A stretch of 64,000 nt of DNA from an uncultured Pelagibacteraceae bacterium (GTDB lineage Bacteria; Pseudomonadota; Alphaproteobacteria; Pelagibacterales; Pelagibacteraceae). This document shows positions 12,655 to 33,714 of the stretch, in pieces. How positions within the stretch are numbered: the first letter of the stretch is position 1; each line of letters begins with the position of its first letter. The notes below the pieces were generated by a model. That model was not told the origin of the DNA, did not search any database, and saw only the letters and a list, made by a program, of their open reading frames with translations. Where the stretch lies: NCBI GenBank assembly GCA_902617715.1, contig CACMXS010000003.1, positions 1-64,000 of the forward strand. The letters are read 5' to 3'. The translations under genes and the position numbers were made by a program.

Positions 12655-13269
12655 TTAATATTGTTGTGTAACAATAATTATTAATGCAATAACAACTAAA
12701 ACACTCGCTGAGATTGTATTAATTGTTTTGGGATTTGCTTTTATCCAAGTTATTAATTTTTGTGCAAGCACTGCATATCCAATCAAAGAAAGAAAATCTA
12801 GTACAATATAAGTTGTTATCAAAATAAAAAATTGGACAATGTAATTTGAATTAAAGTCAATAAATTGTGGAAATATTAAAGGAAAGAAGAGCCAAGCTTT
12901 TGGGCTTGTTCCTGCAACTAAAAAACCATCTTTAAAAAAAGAAAAAAAACTTTTTGAAGTAATTATTTTTGAATTTATATCTTTTGGTGAAGATTTATAA
13001 ACATCATAAGCTAAATAAAGTAAATATAGTACACCAATCCACTTAAAAAAATTTAAAAACTTAGGATTGTCAGAAAAAAAAGTTCCTAAAACAAATATAA
13101 CTAACGTTGCTTGAACAAAATTTGCAGTAATATCACCAAATGCAGTCCATATACAATTTCGAACCCCATAATTCATAGAATAAGAGACAATAACTATTCT
13201 TGGCGTCCCTGGTGTAATGAATAAAAAAATTATAATTTGTAAAAAAAGGATAAAATCTAAAGGGAGCAT
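12655..13269 (-). CDS. LysE/RhtB family amino acid exporter
   Basis: 204-aa multi-TM protein; FITPGTPRIVIVSYSMNYGVRNCIWTAFGDI; GTSPKAWLFFPLIFPQFID. Confidence 0.8.
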   Translation of the reverse strand: MLPLDFILFLQIIIFLFITPGTPRIVIVSYSMNYGVRNCIWTAFGDITANFVQATLVIFVLGTFFSDNPKFLNFFKWIGVLYLLYLAYDVYKSSPKDINSKIITSKSFFSFFKDGFLVAGTSPKAWLFFPLIFPQFIDFNSNYIVQFFILITTYIVLDFLSLIGYAVLAQKLITWIKANPKTINTISASVLVVIALIIIVTQQY

Positions 13270-13278
13270 AAAAAAAAA

Positions 13279-13325
13279 GATAGTCCTTAAAAACCGGGAG
13301 CTAAAGATGGCTAAGAAGGACTATC
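13279..13325. promoter_or_regulatory. 10-bp inverted repeat; terminator-shaped on the minus strand directly before the lysE ATG
   Basis: gatagtcctt (13279-13288) and aaggactatc (13316-13325) with A9 at 13270-13278 (U9 on the minus transcript) abutting the lysE start codon at 13267-13269. Confidence 0.55.
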
Positions 13326-13393
13326 AGGTTACACTATATCAGATCCAAAAAAAAATGCATTATCGATTTTTTTCAAATATAAAGGATTTATGA
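13307..13393 (+). CDS. Putative 28-codon leader ORF MAKKDYQVTLYQIQKKMHYRFFSNIKDL
   Basis: ATG preceded by a GGGAG Shine-Dalgarno-like sequence; TGA stop overlaps the ATG of the next gene (ATGA). Confidence 0.4.
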   Translation: MAKKDYQVTLYQIQKKMHYRFFSNIKDL

Positions 13394-16588: not shown

Positions 16589-18640
16589 TTATTTTTTCTT
16601 TATTAATTCAGTATTATTTATATTTATAGCCATACAAGTAATATCATCCCTTAATTTTTCAGCACCCCAATTTAATTCTTTTTCAATAGACTCAACTATG
16701 GTTTTTGGTGTCACATCTGACATGCCATCTATGATTTTTTGCACTCCTTCTGCGCCTAATTCCTCACCATTTTTCAAATACCCTTCCGTTACGCCATCAG
16801 TATAAACAACAAATGTCTTATCTTTAAGGTTCATAGTATTTGATTTAACCATCGACTCTGTGAAATATTTAACAATTCCAATAGGTGGCATTTCTGACTT
16901 GATGTATTCATAATTTTTATTTTGATCGAAAGTTAAAATGCTTTCATGCCCTGCATTAATAAATACTAGTTCTCCAGTTTTAATATTTAATTTTCCAAAA
17001 ACAGCGGTTACAAACATCCCTTTAAATTTAGCCTCAACAAGTTCGTTATTCACTCCAAACACAACTTTTTCTAAAGGGAACTTTAAATTAGTAAGCGTTC
17101 TAAAAATTGAAGATGCTTTTGCCATATACATACCAGCTTTAACGCCTTTTCCAGATACATCGGCTAATGTAAAAAAGTACTCTTCAGGTGTTGCTCTAAC
17201 TACATCAAAATAATCTCCTGATACATCTCTTGCTGGTACATTTTTGGCAAAGATAAAATTCTCAAATTTTGAAATATCTGGAAATAAACTTTTTTGGACA
17301 CCTGCCGCAAGTTCACGTTCTTTTAATAATTTTGCTTCTTTTTGTAAATTGTCTAAAGCAATTTTATTTTCCTCAATAAATCTAAAATAGAGACCAGTTA
17401 AAAAAGTAATTGTAACAATAAATATTGGATAACTCATATCAATAAGTTCAGATCTAAATTTATAGATAGAAAATCCAATAATTATTATTGCTAAAAGATT
17501 TCCAAAGAAAATAGATAAGCTATATTTTGGTTTTATTTTTTGAGATAGAATAAATGTGATTAAAGCTACAATTATTGAAAATAATAACTCAAAAATATAA
17601 GTGTTTGGATTTCTAATTAAGTAAGATTGATCTAAAATATTTTCAATTACATTAGCATGAACTTCTACTCCCGGAACGGTTACTCCTAACGGAGTTTTAA
17701 CTAGATCGAAAAGTCCTTGAGCTGAAGCACCTATTAAAACATATTTATCTTTAAAAAAATCTGATTGAAATTTACCATCATAAACATCACCAGCAGAGAT
17801 ATATTGTTTTTTATCAGATTTTTTATATTTGATCCAAATTATACCATTAGGGTCTGAACTTATCTTATAGGGTCTTGCGCTTATTCTATTAATTCCAACT
17901 TCATTTAATTCTACGTAAATATTTTTTTGATTAGATCCAACTCTAACCATTTCAAGCCCCATAGTTGGATATAATTTTTTATTAAATTGAACAATAAGAG
18001 GTAAAGATCTTATAATTCCATCTAACTGATCTAAAAATGATATTGAACCTAATCCTTTTACATCTTTTTCTAATATTTCAAGAGATCCAATAGAATAAGG
18101 GTATGAATAAGTAAATTGTTTTGGATCTCCACCTTTAGACAAAAATCTTGCTTTTGCTTTTCGATCATAATTTGAATGAGAAGGAACATTGCTTCCTAGA
18201 ACTGCAATTATTGATTTAGACTCTTTCAATTTTTCAGAAAAAATCTCATCGGGACCTTTTAGTTTTTGAAGTTCAGCTACATCGGAAGGTATTAAATCGT
18301 ACGACTTAATTATTTCATCAGGTGACTGTTTATCTTTTTCAGTAAAAAAAATATCGAACCCAATCGCTTTAGGATTTGATGTATTAAGTTGATCAAGTAT
18401 TTTTGCAAATACATTTCTATTCCATGGAAATTGTCCAAATTTTCCTAAACTCTCTTCATCTATATCAATGATTACAACTTCACTATCTTTTTTTTGTGCA
18501 AACACTTTTTGATAAAGATCAAAACTAAGATATGAAACTGATTTGATAAATGAAGGATTTATTATCTTAAGAGAAATGAGAAATAAAAGAACTAATAAGA
18601 AAATCAGATAGTTTGTGTGTTTTTGCAAAAATACTTTCAC
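16589..18640 (-). CDS. CHASE2 sensor domain fused to PP2C/SpoIIE-type serine phosphatase
   Basis: N-terminal CHASE2-like DSEVVIIDIDEESLGKFGQFPWNRNVFAKILDQL...GFDIFF; three TMs; C-terminal VSGDYFDVV, ADVSGKGVKAGMYMAKASSIFRTL, NAGHE, VYTDGVTEG, RDDITCM. Confidence 0.85.
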   Translation of the reverse strand: MKVFLQKHTNYLIFLLVLLFLISLKIINPSFIKSVSYLSFDLYQKVFAQKKDSEVVIIDIDEESLGKFGQFPWNRNVFAKILDQLNTSNPKAIGFDIFFTEKDKQSPDEIIKSYDLIPSDVAELQKLKGPDEIFSEKLKESKSIIAVLGSNVPSHSNYDRKAKARFLSKGGDPKQFTYSYPYSIGSLEILEKDVKGLGSISFLDQLDGIIRSLPLIVQFNKKLYPTMGLEMVRVGSNQKNIYVELNEVGINRISARPYKISSDPNGIIWIKYKKSDKKQYISAGDVYDGKFQSDFFKDKYVLIGASAQGLFDLVKTPLGVTVPGVEVHANVIENILDQSYLIRNPNTYIFELLFSIIVALITFILSQKIKPKYSLSIFFGNLLAIIIIGFSIYKFRSELIDMSYPIFIVTITFLTGLYFRFIEENKIALDNLQKEAKLLKERELAAGVQKSLFPDISKFENFIFAKNVPARDVSGDYFDVVRATPEEYFFTLADVSGKGVKAGMYMAKASSIFRTLTNLKFPLEKVVFGVNNELVEAKFKGMFVTAVFGKLNIKTGELVFINAGHESILTFDQNKNYEYIKSEMPPIGIVKYFTESMVKSNTMNLKDKTFVVYTDGVTEGYLKNGEELGAEGVQKIIDGMSDVTPKTIVESIEKELNWGAEKLRDDITCMAININNTELIKKK

Positions 18641-22575: not shown

Positions 22576-22875
22576 ATGACTTATAAAGTTACAGAAGAAG
22601 GAAACGTCAGCACTGTTTTTTTAAATGGTGAAATAGATATGGATGTTACTGAAAAAGCTAAAGAGCAAATTTTGCCTTTGGTTGAATCTGGTAAAGAAGT
22701 TCACCTAAATTTAAAAGATGTTTCTTACATGGACTCTTCTGGAATTTCTATTCTTATTGAAAGCCATCAAAAGGCTCTTGAATTGAATACTAAAGTCATA
22801 ATCAAAGAGGTAAGTAAATCTGTTTTAAAAGTTATTATGATGGCAAAACTTGAGCAGATATTAAACTTAGAATAA
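22576..22875 (+). CDS. STAS-domain anti-sigma-factor antagonist (RsbV/SpoIIAA-like)
   Basis: NVSTVFLNGEIDMDVTEKAKEQILPLV...LNLKDVSYMDSSGISILIES with the conserved DSSG phospho-acceptor motif. Confidence 0.88.
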   Translation: MTYKVTEEGNVSTVFLNGEIDMDVTEKAKEQILPLVESGKEVHLNLKDVSYMDSSGISILIESHQKALELNTKVIIKEVSKSVLKVIMMAKLEQILNLE

Positions 22876-23288
22876 TGAACATTCAAGAATCTAAAGATTT
22901 TTTAGTAAGTACCGCTAGTTTGAAAGAGGTAAGAACTTTTTCTAGAGAAGTGTTTGAAAAAATTAATTTACCACAAGATCAAAAAGATGAGCTTGTATTA
23001 GCTATTGCTGAAGCTGCTCAAAATATTGTTAAACATGCTTACAAAGATGTTGTTGAAACTTCAGACAGAATGGAAATTAAAATTTCACTTAAAGATAAGG
23101 ATTTAGAAATAGGTTTTTTTGACAAAGGTAAAGCAGTAATACCTGAAAATATCAAACACAGAAAATTAGACGATATTAAACCTGGTGGACTTGGAACTTT
23201 TTTCATCAAACAGATTATGGATGCTGCTGTTTTTAAAAAGGATCAAAAAGAATGGGTAAACCACTTAGTGCTTACAAAAAAAATTTAG
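22875..23288 (+). CDS. RsbW/SpoIIAB-like HATPase serine kinase (anti-sigma factor type)
   Basis: ELVLAIAEAAQNIVKHAYKD N-box, GGLGTFFIKQIMD G-box; start overlaps the STAS stop. Confidence 0.85.
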   Translation: MNIQESKDFLVSTASLKEVRTFSREVFEKINLPQDQKDELVLAIAEAAQNIVKHAYKDVVETSDRMEIKISLKDKDLEIGFFDKGKAVIPENIKHRKLDDIKPGGLGTFFIKQIMDAAVFKKDQKEWVNHLVLTKKI

Positions 23289-24539: not shown

Positions 24540-26291
24540 TTATGAAGCTGATAAAACCCGTTCATACTCCCTAAAATTAAGCTCCCCATTTGCAATTAGT
24601 CTTCTGCCCATATCTTGCATGGTCTGAAAACCCTCTTTTATTGCAATTTCTCTTAATTCAGGTGTTGTTGCTTTTCTAAGTATTGCTTCTTTCACAGGTT
24701 TTGAAACTACCAAAATTTCATAAAGACCCTGTCTTCCCTTATAGCCAGTATCTTTACATTTAGCACAACCTTTTCCTTTTACAGCTTTTACTCTAGAAGC
24801 TTGTTCTGGAGAAAAACCTAAATCCTGTAAAACTTTTGGATTAACATCGTCATCTGGAACTCTACAATCTTTGCAAGTTCTTCTTGCTAATCTTTGTGCT
24901 AAAACTAATTGGCAAGCAGCACTAATTAAATAATCAGGTGTCCCCATATTTTGTAATCTAGTTATTGTGCTTGGAGCATCATTAGTGTGCAAAGTACTAA
25001 ATACCAAGTGTCCTGTTAATGCAGCTTTTAATCCTATATCAACAGTCTCTTTATCTCGCATCTCTCCAACTAGAATAATTTCTGGGTCTTGTCTTAAAAA
25101 AGATCTTAATGCTGCAGCAAAACTTAGTCCAATGTCGTCTTTTATCTGTACTTGTCCAACGCCATCTAGTTCATATTCAACAGGATCTTCAGCTGTTAAA
25201 ATATTTAAGTGAGGCTTACTTACTTCTTTTAAGATACTATAAAGAGTTGTAGATTTACCAGATCCAGTTGGTCCAGTTACTAATATTAATCCTTGAGTTG
25301 AATGTATTGATTTTCTTAAATTTTTTAAATCTGCATCCTCAAAGTTTAGTTGCTCTAAAGTAATGTCACCAGCATCTTTGTTTAATACCCGCATTACTAT
25401 TCTCTCATTATTAGCTGTTGGTAAAATTGATAATCGTAAATCAACAACCTTGCCATCAATTTTAAAATTTATAGCTCCGTCTTGAGGTAATCGTCTTTCA
25501 GCAATATCTAATTTACCCATGATTTTAAATCGGGTTACTACTGCTCCATAATTATCATGAAGAAATTGTTTATACTGCTCTTGCTCTGTTAGCATTCCGT
25601 CTAAACGATATCTTACTCGTGAAGAAAATCTGTAAGGTTCTATATGAATATCACTAACCCCTGATTTGATTGCTTCTGCAACAACTGCTGTACTAAATTT
25701 TATAACTTCAGACTCATTCTCTATAGCTTCTATATCTTCTTCAGGAGCTTTTTCTAAAACTTCACCTGCTTCACCCAAATCAGATTCAAAAGTTTTAGTT
25801 TTTTCCTTATTTTCTTTTCTAATTGTTGCAGTTGTAACATCTCCACTTTCTGATTGAAGTTTTTCTATAAATTCTGAAATCTGAGATATTTTAGCAGCAT
25901 GCAATTCAATATTTTTTTTTGTTATCGCTTTTAAATTTCTCATTAAACCAAGTTTTGAACTGTCAGAGATTGCAATATGAAGAGTTTTGCCTTCAACTTT
26001 AAAAGGAGCTACAAAATTTACATTTATGTAATTTGAAGGTAGAACACTTTTAATTTCATCACTGATTTGAATTTTTGAAAGATCAACAACTTCAAGACTC
26101 TGCTCTTTAACTAATACATCAAGAATTTTATCCTCATCTGTAAGCTTAAGTTCAAAAACTGCGTCTATCTGAGATTTATTTCCTTCAGTGCTAATTTTTT
26201 TAATGTTTATTAAATCTTTTCCAGAGATAATATCATTATCAATTAATACATTTATTAAGTTAATTTCACTTTCTCTACTAATTTTAAGCAT
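24540..26291 (-). CDS. pilB: Type IV pilus assembly ATPase PilB/GspE
   Basis: Walker A LVTGPTGSGKSTTLYSIL, AEDPVEYELDGVGQVQ, FLRQDPEIILVGEMRD, Zn-binding CKDCR/CAKCKDTGYKGR. Confidence 0.93.
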   Translation of the reverse strand: MLKISRESEINLINVLIDNDIISGKDLINIKKISTEGNKSQIDAVFELKLTDEDKILDVLVKEQSLEVVDLSKIQISDEIKSVLPSNYINVNFVAPFKVEGKTLHIAISDSSKLGLMRNLKAITKKNIELHAAKISQISEFIEKLQSESGDVTTATIRKENKEKTKTFESDLGEAGEVLEKAPEEDIEAIENESEVIKFSTAVVAEAIKSGVSDIHIEPYRFSSRVRYRLDGMLTEQEQYKQFLHDNYGAVVTRFKIMGKLDIAERRLPQDGAINFKIDGKVVDLRLSILPTANNERIVMRVLNKDAGDITLEQLNFEDADLKNLRKSIHSTQGLILVTGPTGSGKSTTLYSILKEVSKPHLNILTAEDPVEYELDGVGQVQIKDDIGLSFAAALRSFLRQDPEIILVGEMRDKETVDIGLKAALTGHLVFSTLHTNDAPSTITRLQNMGTPDYLISAACQLVLAQRLARRTCKDCRVPDDDVNPKVLQDLGFSPEQASRVKAVKGKGCAKCKDTGYKGRQGLYEILVVSKPVKEAILRKATTPELREIAIKEGFQTMQDMGRRLIANGELNFREYERVLSAS

Positions 26292-27833
26292 CTATAAAAT
26301 CCTCGGTGCAATAAATACTAATAATTCATCCATGTTATCAGTATTTGATTTACCTTTAAACAGGTTTCCAACAACAGGTACATTTCCTACTCCTGGAGTT
26401 TGTTGCTTACTATTTGTTAATGCATTCTTCTTAATACCACCAATAACTACGATATCCCCGTCAGCTATTAGTAATTTAGTACTTATTTCCATTTTATTAA
26501 TTGCAGGATCCCCTGGGTTAGATCTATTAGGCGTATCATTATTTACTTGAATATCTAAAAGGACATTACCATCACCTATTATGCTCGGAGTTACTGTCAT
26601 TTTTAAAGCTGCCTCCTTAAATGAAGTATCAGAACCTTCCGCCGAACTTGAAGCATAAGGAATTTCTTCACCTTGAGTAATAGTTGCAACCTGATTGTCT
26701 AAGGTAAATATTTTTGGATTGGAAATAGTTTTTCCCATTCCTTGAGACTCTAAAGCAGTTATTTCTGTTTTTAGAACTGCAGATCCAGTTTGTTTTAAAA
26801 TACCAATACCACTTGTCTTACCCGCTGCTGTAAAGTCAGTAAGTGAGTCTAACGTATTTGCTAAGTTAGCTGTTCCAGATGAACGATCTACGTTTCCAGT
26901 TGATCCAGCTTGCACACCTCCGATAGTTGGATCACCCTGTCTTCTATAAAATCCACCAAGTCTCGTACCTAAAGCTCTTTCAAAGTCAGAGTTTGCCTCA
27001 ACTATAAAAGCTTCGATTAATACTTGTTTAGTCCTTACATCAATTTCTTTTATTATCTTATCTACAACATCTAAATCTTTCTCTTTTCCTCGTGCAATAA
27101 TTGATCTAGTAGTTTTTTCTTCAGTAAATTGTACTAATGAAATTCCTCCTTCAGCAGCTTTAAACAATTCATCTAAAGTAGCTTTAGCTTCAGCAGGACT
27201 TATATAATAAAGTCTAAAAATTTCTGAAATCAATGGCTCTACTGAGTCCTCTAATTCAACTTTTTTTCTTACAGCTGATGCTCTTGCTGATTTCGTAGAC
27301 TCCTGTTGAGTTAAATTGGATGGAGAGTGGACTCTGATTAAATTACTTTGCACATCAAAGTCTGCTGCGTAATTTTTTAAATCTAAAAGAGCATTGAATG
27401 CTTTATCCCAAGGGATATCAATCAATTGAGCAGTAACTGATCCAGCAACCTCATCTCCTATCAAAATATTAATCTCACCAGCTTTTGCCATTAGTTCAAT
27501 TGCAGTTCGGTAATCTAGATTTTGGAATTTAAAAGACACACTTTGTTTTAGTAATTTATATTCATCACCAATTAATAAATAATTTCTAGTTTTTTGAGAG
27601 GAAATTTGTTTTCTTTTACCAAGCTTGATTACATCTCCTTCAGCTGGTTGTGGACCCATTGAGGCAGTTTTATCTACTTCTATTCTACCTTTTTTCTTAA
27701 TATCATCTTTAATAAGAGGGGTGTTATGTTTGAACTTTTTCTTACCAAAATTAGGGTCTGTAGCACAACCACTCAAGAGTAAAGCTGATACAAAACTAAA
27801 CAAAATTAAAAATTTAAATTTTTTAATATTCAT
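26292..27833 (-). CDS. pilQ: Type IV pilus secretin (PilQ/MshL family lipoprotein)
   Basis: Lipobox LLLSGC; IEAFIVEANSDFERALGTRLGG; secretin core SNPKIFTLDNQVATITQGEEIPY, GNVPVVGNLFKG, DELLVFIAPRIL. Confidence 0.9.
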   Translation of the reverse strand: MNIKKFKFLILFSFVSALLLSGCATDPNFGKKKFKHNTPLIKDDIKKKGRIEVDKTASMGPQPAEGDVIKLGKRKQISSQKTRNYLLIGDEYKLLKQSVSFKFQNLDYRTAIELMAKAGEINILIGDEVAGSVTAQLIDIPWDKAFNALLDLKNYAADFDVQSNLIRVHSPSNLTQQESTKSARASAVRKKVELEDSVEPLISEIFRLYYISPAEAKATLDELFKAAEGGISLVQFTEEKTTRSIIARGKEKDLDVVDKIIKEIDVRTKQVLIEAFIVEANSDFERALGTRLGGFYRRQGDPTIGGVQAGSTGNVDRSSGTANLANTLDSLTDFTAAGKTSGIGILKQTGSAVLKTEITALESQGMGKTISNPKIFTLDNQVATITQGEEIPYASSSAEGSDTSFKEAALKMTVTPSIIGDGNVLLDIQVNNDTPNRSNPGDPAINKMEISTKLLIADGDIVVIGGIKKNALTNSKQQTPGVGNVPVVGNLFKGKSNTDNMDELLVFIAPRIL

Positions 27834-28329
27834 TTGCCTCTCTTATCTGATTTTTAAAGTTCATAATAATATATTTATTTTCACCATCGTTTTCAAAAAC
27901 AGCTCGTTTAATATTTACATCAACAAGTTTAACGCCACTTAAAACTTCTTCAAATAATTCAACAGTCATAAATTCACCGTTATCATCAACTAACGTTATA
28001 AAGCTATTGTCTTGAGCAGAAAATGATCCAACAAGTTTATAAGTTCTTAATTTAACAGCGCTTGAGGTAGGTGTGGATGCAGTTACTATATCACTTGCAG
28101 TAGATGCGTCTCCAGCAAAAGGATCATTTAATGGCAAAGGTTCTTCGTCTACCACAACTGAACCTGTCTCATTATCTATATTATTTTTTTGAGCTGCCTG
28201 TTTTTCTTTTACTTTTTTATTAATCTCTTTTGCTTTATCTACGATATTTTGATCGTGATTATCTGCCACGACTTTTTGTGCAAAAGTAAAGATCATTAGT
28301 ATTAAAATTATGAGCCTAAAAAAATTCAT
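27823..28329 (-). CDS. pilP: PilP-like type IV pilus biogenesis protein
   Basis: Position between secretin and PilO-like; signal peptide; LPLNDPFAG and SAVKLRTYKLVGSFSAQDNSFITLVDDNGEF typical of PilP. Confidence 0.6.
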   Translation of the reverse strand: MNFFRLIILILMIFTFAQKVVADNHDQNIVDKAKEINKKVKEKQAAQKNNIDNETGSVVVDEEPLPLNDPFAGDASTASDIVTASTPTSSAVKLRTYKLVGSFSAQDNSFITLVDDNGEFMTVELFEEVLSGVKLVDVNIKRAVFENDGENKYIIMNFKNQIREANEY

Positions 28330-29011
28330 CTGGTAAACCCACTATTGTTAAAACTCCATTTACAACTACCGTACTGGTTGTATCCCCTTTTATCACTTTA
28401 ATTGTTTCTTTGTCAAAATTTAACATCTTTTGAGACATCGCCACTTGTCGTTTAAACTTGATATATCCAAGAAAATTGCCCTTTATTTGAAAATCTACAG
28501 GTATTTTATAATACGCAATGTTTTTTTTAGCCTTTGTGTCAACTTTTTTCTTCTTTTTCTTTTTCTTTTTCTTTTTTTCTGTAGATGCCATTGCTGAGGC
28601 CTTAGTGATTGCTTTTGGCTTACCTTTTTCAATTTTTGATATAACCAAATTATTTAATCCAGCAAATTCACTTAAGGTCTCATATAAACCCTCTACTTCT
28701 GCTTTACTGTGAAAGAGCGTAGAATAATTTTCGTATCGAGGAGTAAGTTTTTTAATTTTTGCTTTATTGTTTGAGATATCTTTGTTCATCTTTTCAATTT
28801 CAGCCTGTTTTTTTTGCATATTATCAAGCTGAGCTTTTTTCTTATCAACAATAGGATTAAGAACAGTATAGAATATAATTAGGAATAAAATTACAGATCC
28901 AAAACCAATCCCAAATTTTATTAAAGTTTTTTTATCTATTGATTGAATTTTGGCCTTAATACTTTCTACATTTATATTCTTCAAATCTAAATTAATGTTT
29001 TTTAAATCCAT
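28316..29011 (-). CDS. pilO: PilO-like type IV pilus biogenesis protein with a poly-lysine insert
   Basis: N-terminal TM, coiled coil, ferredoxin-like C-terminus VDFQIKGNFLGYIKFKRQVAMSQKMLNFD; insert EKKKKKKKKKKKVD. Confidence 0.65.
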   Translation of the reverse strand: MDLKNINLDLKNINVESIKAKIQSIDKKTLIKFGIGFGSVILFLIIFYTVLNPIVDKKKAQLDNMQKKQAEIEKMNKDISNNKAKIKKLTPRYENYSTLFHSKAEVEGLYETLSEFAGLNNLVISKIEKGKPKAITKASAMASTEKKKKKKKKKKKVDTKAKKNIAYYKIPVDFQIKGNFLGYIKFKRQVAMSQKMLNFDKETIKVIKGDTTSTVVVNGVLTIVGLPDEFF

Positions 29012-29014
29012 AAA

Positions 29015-31435
29015 TTATCCTTTAACATCTATTATTACTGTAAAGTTCTTTTTAATATCTGCAGAGTCTCCTGCTTTACCCTTAAAATTCATATTTCCTA
29101 GTGAAGCTTGGGTAACTAATTCTTGAGCTCCCAAATTATTTATTAATTTTAAAATATCTTGATCTGTTGCAGCCTGACCTTTTATTACTACTCTATTTTT
29201 TCCATTATAATCAACAGAGTCAAATTTTATTCTTTTTGGAACACTCATAGCAACTTGTGCTAAAACTCTGTAACTAATTTTTTTATTTGATTTAAGACTA
29301 TTGCTTAATTTTAATGTATTCGAAATTACCGCTAGTTCTTTTTTAATTTTCTTTTGTTCAGCTTTTTTTATTTTATGAGTTTTTAGTATTTTGTCGTAGT
29401 TAACTAACTTTTTATTATAAGAATGAATGTTCCAAAAAGATAATGCAAAAAGGAATAAATATACTGCTGCAACTGTAGCTGTAATTCCCTTGAAAGCAAA
29501 ATTTGAAAATGCTTTCATCTTTTTCTCTTTGATCATTCCTTTTCGATTAGGTAATAAATTTATATTTTTGACAGCAGTTACAAATTTATAATAACCAAAG
29601 ACGTCTAATTTTCTAAAAGCAAGACCTATTACTGAAGATAAATAAGATCTATTAGGCAAATCAACTTTATCTTTATTTTGTTGAGGAATTAATAATCCAT
29701 CCATTGGATCGAATAAATTAAAACTTACATTTAGTAAAATTTTTCTAAAATTAGCTAAATAATCTTCAACATTCTGTAAATCAGAAACAACTTTTATATT
29801 TCTAATTCTTTTTTCATATTTAGTTTCAAAGTCTTGAACAGCTTGTTTTACTTGTGTTATAAATCTTCTTACAAGTGCTTCTTTTTCTTCGGCATCTTGA
29901 GACTCTAATAGTATTTTTCTGTCTTGCCCTCGTAAAAAAATATCAGTAATTATTGGATTATTATCATATAAAATCATTAGATAATTTTCATCTAAACCAA
30001 ACTCTAAAACTGCAGTTAAATTTGCATCATCGGCTTTATTTGAAATTTGATTTATCTGATCTACTGCAGATTTTAATGCAAAACATTTTACATCAATTAT
30101 AACTGGGTTAAGATTACTTTGTTTAATGATTGAAGTATAATTATTTATATCAGCTAGTTTTGAGGCAACAAATAAAATATCCATTGTATTTGCTTTTTCA
30201 TTTCTATTTATTACCTGGTGAAAAATTGAATAGTCATCCAAGTTATCAGTTAATTGAACTAAATTTTCCCAAAGTGAATTAGTTTCTATTGCTTTTTGCA
30301 ATTCCTCTTCCTTCATTAAAGGCGCAGTAACAACTCTTATAATTGCACTTGTAACAGGTATAGCTATAGCAGCATTAAGAGTTGAAATTTTAGACTTTTG
30401 TAATGCAATTGAAAGTTCAGCTCCTAATTTTTCTCCGTTATCTAAAACATTTGCATCATCTGGAAGATCAACTGAATGAACATAAAATTTATCTAATACC
30501 CATTGATTTGATTTGTTTGTTGAAACTTGAGCTAATCTGATTTCTTTATTTGTAATTTCTACACCAACAATTTCCTCACCTTTTACTGATGACTTACCAA
30601 TTTTAGATTTGAAAAAATTTCCAACTTTTTTTGTAAGCTCACTTGTTTTTAAAGATTGTGGTGAGCTAGAACTTTTTTTAATAAAATCTGGTTTTTTAAA
30701 TTTAATTTTTTTTAGATTATCTAGAAAAGCAAACTTAGATTTCTTTTCTTCTGTAACATCTTCTACAACTTGGCTTAAATTTGCAGTGTCATCTTTTTTT
30801 GGTTCTGATGTTACAATTGGTTGACTTGTTTCTTGAGGTTTTTCAATTTCGTTCGGAGTTTCTAATTGAGTAGTAGATTGTTCAGTAGTAACGTTCTGGT
30901 CAACAGTAGTAGTTTGTTCTGTAATTTCTTTTTCTTTAGCCTGACCAGAAACTACATCATCAAACCATTTTTCTAAAATAGGAATTGCTTCTTCTAAATT
31001 TGGAGTTCCCGATGATGAAATTTTTTGTTTTCCCTCATGATAAAGTCGTCCAACCCAATTTTTTGACTTTAATTCACCTTTATATTTGTCTTGTCGAACA
31101 TAAATATGCAATCTTCCATCTTTTTTGTGGATCACTTCACGTCCTGGACTAACCTCTTCCTCTTTCGTTTCACTCGAAACGCTAGAAGTTTGTTGATCTT
31201 CATTATTTTGAGTTTCTAAATTCTGATTAATACCTTTTTCTTCTGAGGAAATATCATTATTTTGGTTTTGATCATTATTTTGATCATCATTTACATTCCC
31301 ATCAGTAGTGGAGTCGTTATTTTGAGTTTCTACACTCTCAGGTTGATCATTTTTATCAACTGATGGTTGATTTTCAGTCTCTGACTGAGATGAACCCTCA
31401 TCAATAATTTTTTTATCGTCTTCTTGGTCGCTCAT
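29015..31435 (-). CDS. pilM: Fused PilM-PilN-like protein with long acidic N-terminal extension
   Basis: EEIVGVEITNKEIRLAQVS...LNAAIAIPVTSAIIRVV (actin-like PilM), then NINLLPNRKGMIKEKK + TM + PilN-like domain; ~280 aa low-complexity N-terminal region. Confidence 0.75.
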   Translation of the reverse strand: MSDQEDDKKIIDEGSSQSETENQPSVDKNDQPESVETQNNDSTTDGNVNDDQNNDQNQNNDISSEEKGINQNLETQNNEDQQTSSVSSETKEEEVSPGREVIHKKDGRLHIYVRQDKYKGELKSKNWVGRLYHEGKQKISSSGTPNLEEAIPILEKWFDDVVSGQAKEKEITEQTTTVDQNVTTEQSTTQLETPNEIEKPQETSQPIVTSEPKKDDTANLSQVVEDVTEEKKSKFAFLDNLKKIKFKKPDFIKKSSSSPQSLKTSELTKKVGNFFKSKIGKSSVKGEEIVGVEITNKEIRLAQVSTNKSNQWVLDKFYVHSVDLPDDANVLDNGEKLGAELSIALQKSKISTLNAAIAIPVTSAIIRVVTAPLMKEEELQKAIETNSLWENLVQLTDNLDDYSIFHQVINRNEKANTMDILFVASKLADINNYTSIIKQSNLNPVIIDVKCFALKSAVDQINQISNKADDANLTAVLEFGLDENYLMILYDNNPIITDIFLRGQDRKILLESQDAEEKEALVRRFITQVKQAVQDFETKYEKRIRNIKVVSDLQNVEDYLANFRKILLNVSFNLFDPMDGLLIPQQNKDKVDLPNRSYLSSVIGLAFRKLDVFGYYKFVTAVKNINLLPNRKGMIKEKKMKAFSNFAFKGITATVAAVYLFLFALSFWNIHSYNKKLVNYDKILKTHKIKKAEQKKIKKELAVISNTLKLSNSLKSNKKISYRVLAQVAMSVPKRIKFDSVDYNGKNRVVIKGQAATDQDILKLINNLGAQELVTQASLGNMNFKGKAGDSADIKKNFTVIIDVKG

Positions 31436-31455: not shown

Positions 31456-31791
31456 CTCTAACACAAATTAACGAATCTCTAACACAAAAAACAAAATTAG
31501 TCTAACACAAAATTATAAAAAAGATGTCCAATTTGGGAATATGATAAAAAAAGTCAATAAAATAGCCATTTTTCAATAAATAAATTTTTTTTTAACTTTT
31601 TTTATAAATTTAATTTAAGGCTCATTCTCTAACACAAAATAGAAATATTGATTTGTGTTAGAGTATTTTTGATTTGTGTTAGAGATAATTTAATTTTATG
31701 AATCTACAAAAAGATAGTAAAATCAATAAAAAAAGAAATTTTGATAAAAAGTTCTCTTTTTGTGTTAGAGTTATAATTTTTTGTGTTAGAG
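31456..31791. repeat. Eight copies of a 12-bp motif CTCTAACACAAA / TTTGTGTTAGAG in mirrored orientation
   Basis: Forward copies at 31456, 31477, 31500 (first base G), 31627; reverse copies at 31652, 31673, 31759, 31780; adjacent copies spaced 21-23 bp. Confidence 0.9.
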
Positions 31792-32343: not shown

Positions 32344-33714
32344 TTAAACTCCGTCTACTACAACAATAGTTAAGTCATCTTTTTGAATTCTACCTGATTT
32401 AATAATATCTTCTACAATTTTATTTAATCTTTCGTAATTAGGTGTGTGTTGATATTTTTTTATATAATTTTTAAAACCATCTGACTCTAACATGTTTCCG
32501 TCAGCATCTTTTATTTCTGTAATTCCATCGGTAAAAATATACAAAGAACTTTCAGAAAACTTTAATATAGTTTCTTTATATTTTATCTTCGACATAATTC
32601 CTAATGGAGGACCTGCTTCAGTATAATTTAAAAATTTTCCGTCTTTCGAAAAAATTAACGGTGGTTCATGTCCTGCATTCGCAAGAAGTAATTCTTTTTT
32701 TTTACTATCGTAAATTCCAATGAGCATAGTAACAAACATTCCACGCGCAGCAGTTTCACATATTTCTGAATTAAGCAAGTTAAGTAATTCGGATGCAGAG
32801 TACATTGTCTTACTTAAACATCTATAGAGACTAGAAGCTTTAGACATGAGGAGAGATGATTTAATTCCTTTTCCTGAAACGTCTGCTACACCAAATCCAT
32901 ACTTACCATCACCTAGTTCTGAAAAATTATAAAAATCTCCTGAAACAACTTTCGCAGGGATATTTATTCCTGCGATGGGAAAATTTTCTTTTTTGTTTTG
33001 TGATAATAAAGTTTTTTGAATCTCTCCAACAATTTCAATTTCTTTTTGCATTCTATTCTTATCAACTAAATCTTTTGCCATCTTAGCATTATTAATTGCT
33101 AATGCTGCTGGTCCAGACAAAGTTTCTAAAAGTTTTCTATCGTTTTCTTCAAAAAGTTTATTATTAGTTTTTTTATTTAAACAATGAATAACACCAATAC
33201 ATTCATCTGATACAATTAAAGGAGAACATAAAACTGAATACGTTGTAAAATTTGTTTTGTTGTCTAAGTCAAAATAAAATTCAGCAATTTCTCTTACATC
33301 TTTTCTAACATCACCAACTCTAATACATTTTTTCATAACGGCTGCTTTACCCATTACTCCTTGTGTAATTGGTATTTCAAAGTCTTCAAGATATGCTTGA
33401 TGTTTTGAGGCAATACACTGAAACGATTGATTTTTTTTATCAATTAAAAAAATATTTGCTGCTTGAGCGTTTATTCTTTTTACAATTAGATCTAAAGAAT
33501 TATTTAATGTTTCTTTTAAATCAAGAGACTTTGCAAACTCTTGATTCATTTTTGTGACAAGTTCTAAATCTTTAGAGCTAGTGTCATCTATTTTGATTGT
33601 TTCCTTTTTTTTTGCGCCAAAAAACATACTATTTATAAATTGATATTCGTTGTTATTTTGATATTTTTGAAATTGATGGAAATCATTATTCATGCGCCTA
33701 ATTTCTATTTGCAC
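32344..33714 (-). CDS. GAF-domain PP2C/SpoIIE-type serine phosphatase (RsbU/RsbP-like)
   Basis: GAF region DLIVKRINAQAANIFLIDKKNQSFQCIAS...GKAAVMKKCIRVGDV; phosphatase VSGDFYNF, VADVSGKGIKSSLLMSKASSLYRCL, NAGHEPPLIF, FTDGITEI, KDDLTIVVV. Confidence 0.88.
   Translation of the reverse strand: MQIEIRRMNNDFHQFQKYQNNNEYQFINSMFFGAKKKETIKIDDTSSKDLELVTKMNQEFAKSLDLKETLNNSLDLIVKRINAQAANIFLIDKKNQSFQCIASKHQAYLEDFEIPITQGVMGKAAVMKKCIRVGDVRKDVREIAEFYFDLDNKTNFTTYSVLCSPLIVSDECIGVIHCLNKKTNNKLFEENDRKLLETLSGPAALAINNAKMAKDLVDKNRMQKEIEIVGEIQKTLLSQNKKENFPIAGINIPAKVVSGDFYNFSELGDGKYGFGVADVSGKGIKSSLLMSKASSLYRCLSKTMYSASELLNLLNSEICETAARGMFVTMLIGIYDSKKKELLLANAGHEPPLIFSKDGKFLNYTEAGPPLGIMSKIKYKETILKFSESSLYIFTDGITEIKDADGNMLESDGFKNYIKKYQHTPNYERLNKIVEDIIKSGRIQKDDLTIVVVDGV

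Follow-up and report, generated by a model that had tools for sequence, protein, structure and literature searches.

An uncultured Pelagibacteraceae (SAR11) bacterium encodes a PilM-PilN fusion protein, PilMN, that, judged from sequence comparisons, likely carries a captured integrase arm-binding domain together with the cognate sites of that domain at its own promoter, through which it would limit its own transcription. The candidate sites form an array of eight copies of a 12-bp motif in the 596-bp intergenic region upstream of pilMN, within the window analyzed here (the whole stretch of 64,000 nucleotides, positions 1 to 64,000 of contig CACMXS010000003.1, assembly GCA_902617715.1; Table 1). 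SAR11 bacteria are among the most abundant in the ocean, and have streamlined genomes with few regulators. To our knowledge, little has been published on their pili, and the open-licence PMC literature returned no account of a DNA-binding PilM or of the array. If the proposal is correct, the pilus machine would both sense and set its own expression by means of a mobile-element part taken together with its target sites, so that a DNA-binding domain would have been captured as a single unit with its cognate sites. Moreover, it predicts one specific, directly testable protein-DNA pair.

Table 1. Coordinates of the pilMN locus and of the array sites in the window.
Feature	Position	Strand	Remarks
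pilO-, pilP-, pilQ-, pilB-like genes (rest of putative operon)	24540..29011	-	named by sequence reading
pilMN, fused PilM (Pfam PilM_2) and PilN (Pfam PilN), 806 aa	29015..31435	-	
Integrase-type N-terminal domain of PilMN, residues 101-168	30932..31135	-	predicted strands, then one long helix
Site 1	31456..31467	-	TTTGTGTTAGAG; closest to pilMN start codon
Site 2	31477..31488	-	TTTGTGTTAGAG
Site 3	31500..31511	-	TTTGTGTTAGAC, 1 mismatch; immediately after TATAAT hexamer
Promoter-like pair TTCCCA-N16-TATAAT for pilMN	31512..31539	-	abuts site 3; weak
Second conserved element, TTGATTTTA-like	31550..31565	-	between sites 3 and 4; copy in window degenerate
Site 4	31627..31638	-	TTTGTGTTAGAG; left arm of central inverted repeat
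Site 5	31652..31663	+	right arm of central inverted repeat
Site 6	31673..31684	+	
Second conserved element, TTGATTTTA-like	31719..31732	-	gap between sites 6 and 7
Site 7	31759..31770	+	
Site 8	31780..31791	+	farthest from pilMN

The array had been described in an earlier note as eight mirrored copies with neighbour spacings of 21, 23, 21 and 21 bp, with copies 4 and 5 forming a 12-bp inverted repeat around a 13-nt loop, and with the nearest copy about 20 bp from the pilMN start. All eight copies were found where the note placed them, four on the minus and four on the plus strand, and re-measuring returned the same spacings, the same inverted repeat and a distance of 20 bp to the ATG (31435, minus strand); the two wider intervals measure 127 and 86 bp. 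The note had seen no further exact copies in the window, and this could be extended to the genome (969 kb, 33 contigs, 76% complete), as a search for TTTGTGTTAGA detected no exact copy outside the array. The intergenic region holds eight sites with at most one mismatch, whereas 1000 dinucleotide shuffles yielded 0.001 such sites on average and never more than 1, and the array is not a chance occurrence. The gene downstream matches the PilM_2 (1.6e-17) and PilN (3.7e-5) families, as well as TIGR01175 (6.4e-21, although under the cut-off of that model), and has pilO, pilP and pilQ neighbours, as read from their sequences; a single clear transmembrane helix is predicted at residues 650-668 of PilMN.

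The genome is SAR11-like, with Pelagibacteraceae as its family relatives and an rhtB RNA in the window. We then looked at the array in relatives, which are mostly single-cell or metagenome assemblies. Searches with the pilMN protein and the motif located clusters of exact motifs upstream of pilM in many genera, and only scattered single copies elsewhere. Both the motif and its phasing were retained in related genomes, as the earlier note had proposed to check. Among 488 sites in 69 arrays, positions TGTGTTAGA were 97-100% invariant, a figure partly conditioned by the search, in which sites were gathered at up to two mismatches to the motif. Preferred spacings in these arrays were 21/22 bp on the same strand and 24/25 bp for the inverted pair, with gaps of about 86 and about 128 bp; the sequence around the sites has diverged between relatives, and orientation and copy number differ among genomes. 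In one branch, pilM and a divergent pilT-like gene flank the array, and in other branches it lies 3' of differing genes, indicating that the array travels with pilM. One lineage has a larger array of 12-14 copies across about 900 bp (L025, upstream of pilM; L147).

The presence of the array follows that of a conserved N-terminal domain of PilMN (residues about 100-168) that ordinary PilM lacks. This domain is found on PilM in 50 of 297 genomes of the order, and all 50 have the array: in 49 it shows as an exact phased pair of sites, whereas in G293, where it has diverged, it was detected by a relaxed scan. No exact phased pair was detected in the 247 genomes without a domain-bearing PilM. Fisher's test for this co-occurrence gives p of about 1e-55, a value that overstates the independent evidence given shared ancestry and neighbouring positions; taken alone, the co-occurrence could stem from joint inheritance of adjoining DNA. 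In addition, 11 relatives with a short PilM, starting near residue 250, have kept pilM and have neither the domain nor the array, and form one group on the PilM-core tree (support 89/99). Loss of the motif in relatives that keep the operon was the outcome that the earlier note had named as speaking against its proposal: such loss does occur in some relatives, but the domain is missing there as well. Two other candidates for a short PilM (L026 and L074) were rejected as contig-edge truncations, and weak domain matches in G278, G388, G394 and G003 were attributed to chance, since they fall in a frame of 497 aa whose G003 version reads as amidophosphoribosyltransferase. In another contig (L193:1-560), the sequence 5' of a domain-bearing PilM is mid-gene SpoIIE, which is probably due to a chimeric or collapsed single-cell assembly.

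Three SAR11 mobile elements encode tyrosine integrases that begin with the same domain, at about 50-60% identity, and these integrases are the only other SAR11 cellular proteins in which we found it. In L121-L123 and L212 the domain is N-terminal, and Phage_integrase scores above its cut-off in L121 and L123, and more weakly in L212. At the class level, the only clear match of the domain profile outside the order was likewise the N-terminus of a tyrosine recombinase (E 0.005). Models of the domain from PilM and from an integrase (pLDDT 80 and 88, respectively) both predict strands followed by a long helix. Foldseek searches of PDB and viral models gave no significant match (best E 0.5), with 3rmp, the arm-binding domain of a P4-like integrase, at rank 17 with a TM of 0.50; the predicted fold agrees with that of an arm-binding domain, short of proof. 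A PDB sequence search and a search of phage genome records returned no match, Pfam and NCBIfam assigned the domain to no family, and PHROGs gave merely weak matches of unknown function.

Besides the domain, these elements carry closely similar sites. In SAR11 single-cell genomes, two integrative elements of about 5 kb each (L120:6379-11518 and L118:1240-6390) are located at tRNA-Leu, and besides the integrase each has a resolvase-like gene and a tRNA-Leu (CAA) of its own. Both ends of each, these being the two of the three integrase elements for which both ends were read, hold tandem arm-type-like sites, TTTGTGTAAGAG, one base off the pilus motif. The repeats came from a blind search that made no use of this motif: the L120 element has an identical 24-mer, TTTGTGTAAGAGTAGTGTAAGAGT, at both ends, and the L118 element, likewise at both ends, a repeat pair with 91% similarity. 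Near the ends and the inner tRNA, 8 and 6 sites were counted in the two elements, versus shuffle means of 0.27 and 0.23, counts unmatched in 500 shuffles, and the interiors hold 2 and 1. This layout is that expected of arm-type sites. Furthermore, 5' of the integrase gene the proximal copy is oriented opposite to the two distal ones, the same polarity as at pilMN; in one element (L122) the sites upstream of the integrase match poorly. Because the domain and the site polarity resemble the N-terminus and the upstream region of integrases in SAR11 elements, domain and sites were probably captured jointly from a mobile element. The same domain was also seen in five IMG/VR virus contigs, on a short protein that lacks the integrase part and has a hydrophobic helix at its C-terminus (loci including L083:4013-4351, L085:1834-2175, L086:3989-4330 and L087:1084-1413). 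These contigs show just isolated near-matches to the motif, and the host array is one possible target of the short protein, which could also work elsewhere.

Proteins that act on their own or a linked promoter through a DNA-binding domain are known among trigger enzymes and membrane-tethered regulators, such as PutA, CadC and ToxR. Like PilMN, these are proteins with another job, or membrane proteins, that bear a DNA-binding domain; we know of none among type IV pilus platform proteins, and of none that uses an integrase-type domain. Regarding the sites, the locus resembles the arm-type sites of tyrosine integrases (lambda Int, P4-like Int and KplE1 IntS) in the small N-terminal domain, in the short direct-site arrays in both orientations, and in a possible DNA-bending element between sites. 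Unlike in integrases, however, the pilMN locus has no catalytic domain, no core site was recognized there short of a detailed search, and the arm-binding-like domain is carried by a pilus assembly protein. In negatively autoregulated integrase genes such as intS of KplE1, as proposed here for pilMN, the arm-type sites lie on or next to the promoter of the gene for the protein that binds them; IntS represses its own promoter, which overlaps those sites, and this repression is not relieved by single arm-site mutations (PMC2951348). PilMN differs in being a structural, membrane-anchored pilus protein, and its autoregulation is putative. ALOG domains are reported to derive from the DNA-binding domains of tyrosine recombinases, and also represent a recombinase DNA-binding domain co-opted for regulation, but they are eukaryotic, involve another recombinase domain, and come without a captured array of cognate sites (PMC3537659).

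The region between the array sites was also analyzed. The hexamer TATAAT directly before site 3 is exact in the window and mildly enriched in relatives (49% vs 30%), and would place the transcription start close to the three proximal sites. At the promoter-like position, a TTGACC...-type block is common in relatives, and the block before TATAAT is well conserved; in a promoter scan, promoter-like pairs were no commoner than in shuffles. In the relatives' arrays, a second element, TTGATTTTA, is strongly enriched in both gaps (36/44 and 22/45, with about 1 in shuffles). It resembles an IHF site but fails the strict IHF consensus WATCAANNNNTTR, which is not enriched in the gaps (4/44 and 2/45); the genome encodes two HU/IHF-family genes.

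Based on these results, the array probably represents arm-type-like sites for the integrase-type domain of the PilM-PilN fusion encoded downstream, and we strongly infer that PilMN binds it. Held in the inner membrane via the PilN transmembrane helix, PilMN would bind its own promoter region and so be positioned over the beginning of its operon, and occupation of the three proximal sites would limit pilMN transcription, self-limitation being the simplest model. The distal sites could add cooperativity or looping. By analogy with IntS, repression appears a better candidate than activation.

Given the membrane anchor of PilMN, a real alternative is that the locus is tethered. PilMN binding could mainly anchor the locus at the inner membrane by the pilus machine, rather than repress transcription, serving coupled expression and assembly or chromosome positioning; for instance, PilMN might hold its own promoter at the membrane, so that operon transcription is spatially coupled to pilus assembly. 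We regard both the general proposal and this particular form of it as possible, though unlikely. The domain is indeed tethered to a protein with a transmembrane helix, the virus contigs pair the same domain with a C-terminal hydrophobic helix, and eight phased sites across 336 bp are more than one would expect of a simple operator. Nevertheless, the sites lie all around the region 5' of the gene itself and the most proximal ones abut promoter-like sequence, which regulation fits at least equally well. It is distinctly less probable that the array is bound by a transcription factor other than PilMN and that the extra domain of PilM serves another role. The second conserved element suggests that another protein also binds in the region, and binding of the array by PilM is itself deduced from sequence, but the motif almost matches the terminal sites of elements whose integrase has the domain, and no array is found where the domain is absent. 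Moreover, the motif is confined to this array in the genome, which is unusual for a general regulator, and a general regulon was rejected on account of this uniqueness. The cooperative array for an unknown regulator that the earlier note had envisaged is well supported as a phased protein-binding array controlling the pilus operon, while its attribution to a separate unknown protein is unlikely, the best candidate being PilMN itself via its domain.

That the array is a functionless remnant attachment site of a lost mobile element is very improbable: the sites are of the same kind as those at integrase element ends, but across many species their core stays 97-100% invariant and their phasing is kept amid diverged surroundings, the array is lost jointly with the domain, and the locus has no recombinase. 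As for an attP or attL site, we found no integrase among the ORFs of the window, and no tRNA. RNA hairpins or cruciforms, or an iteron-type replication origin, are less probable still, even with a central 12-bp inverted repeat and AT-rich surroundings. Same-orientation copies are unable to pair mutually, the sequence is invariant and without covariation, and Rfam had no match at the array; the RNA or cruciform structures suggested earlier are thus disfavoured by the invariant sequence, the direct repeats on each side, and the variable orientation and copy number. Nor is the iteron suggestion supported, as the window shows no sustained GC-skew switch and no replication gene, and the array follows pilM.

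SpoIIE-type phosphatases and STAS/anti-sigma-like genes are located amid the pilus genes of the window (32344-33714, 22576-23288 and 16589-18640), which suggests a phosphorylation switch tied to the pilus. Finally, an rhtB sRNA (Rfam RF01814) was identified at 13261-13343, upstream of an RhtB-like exporter gene.
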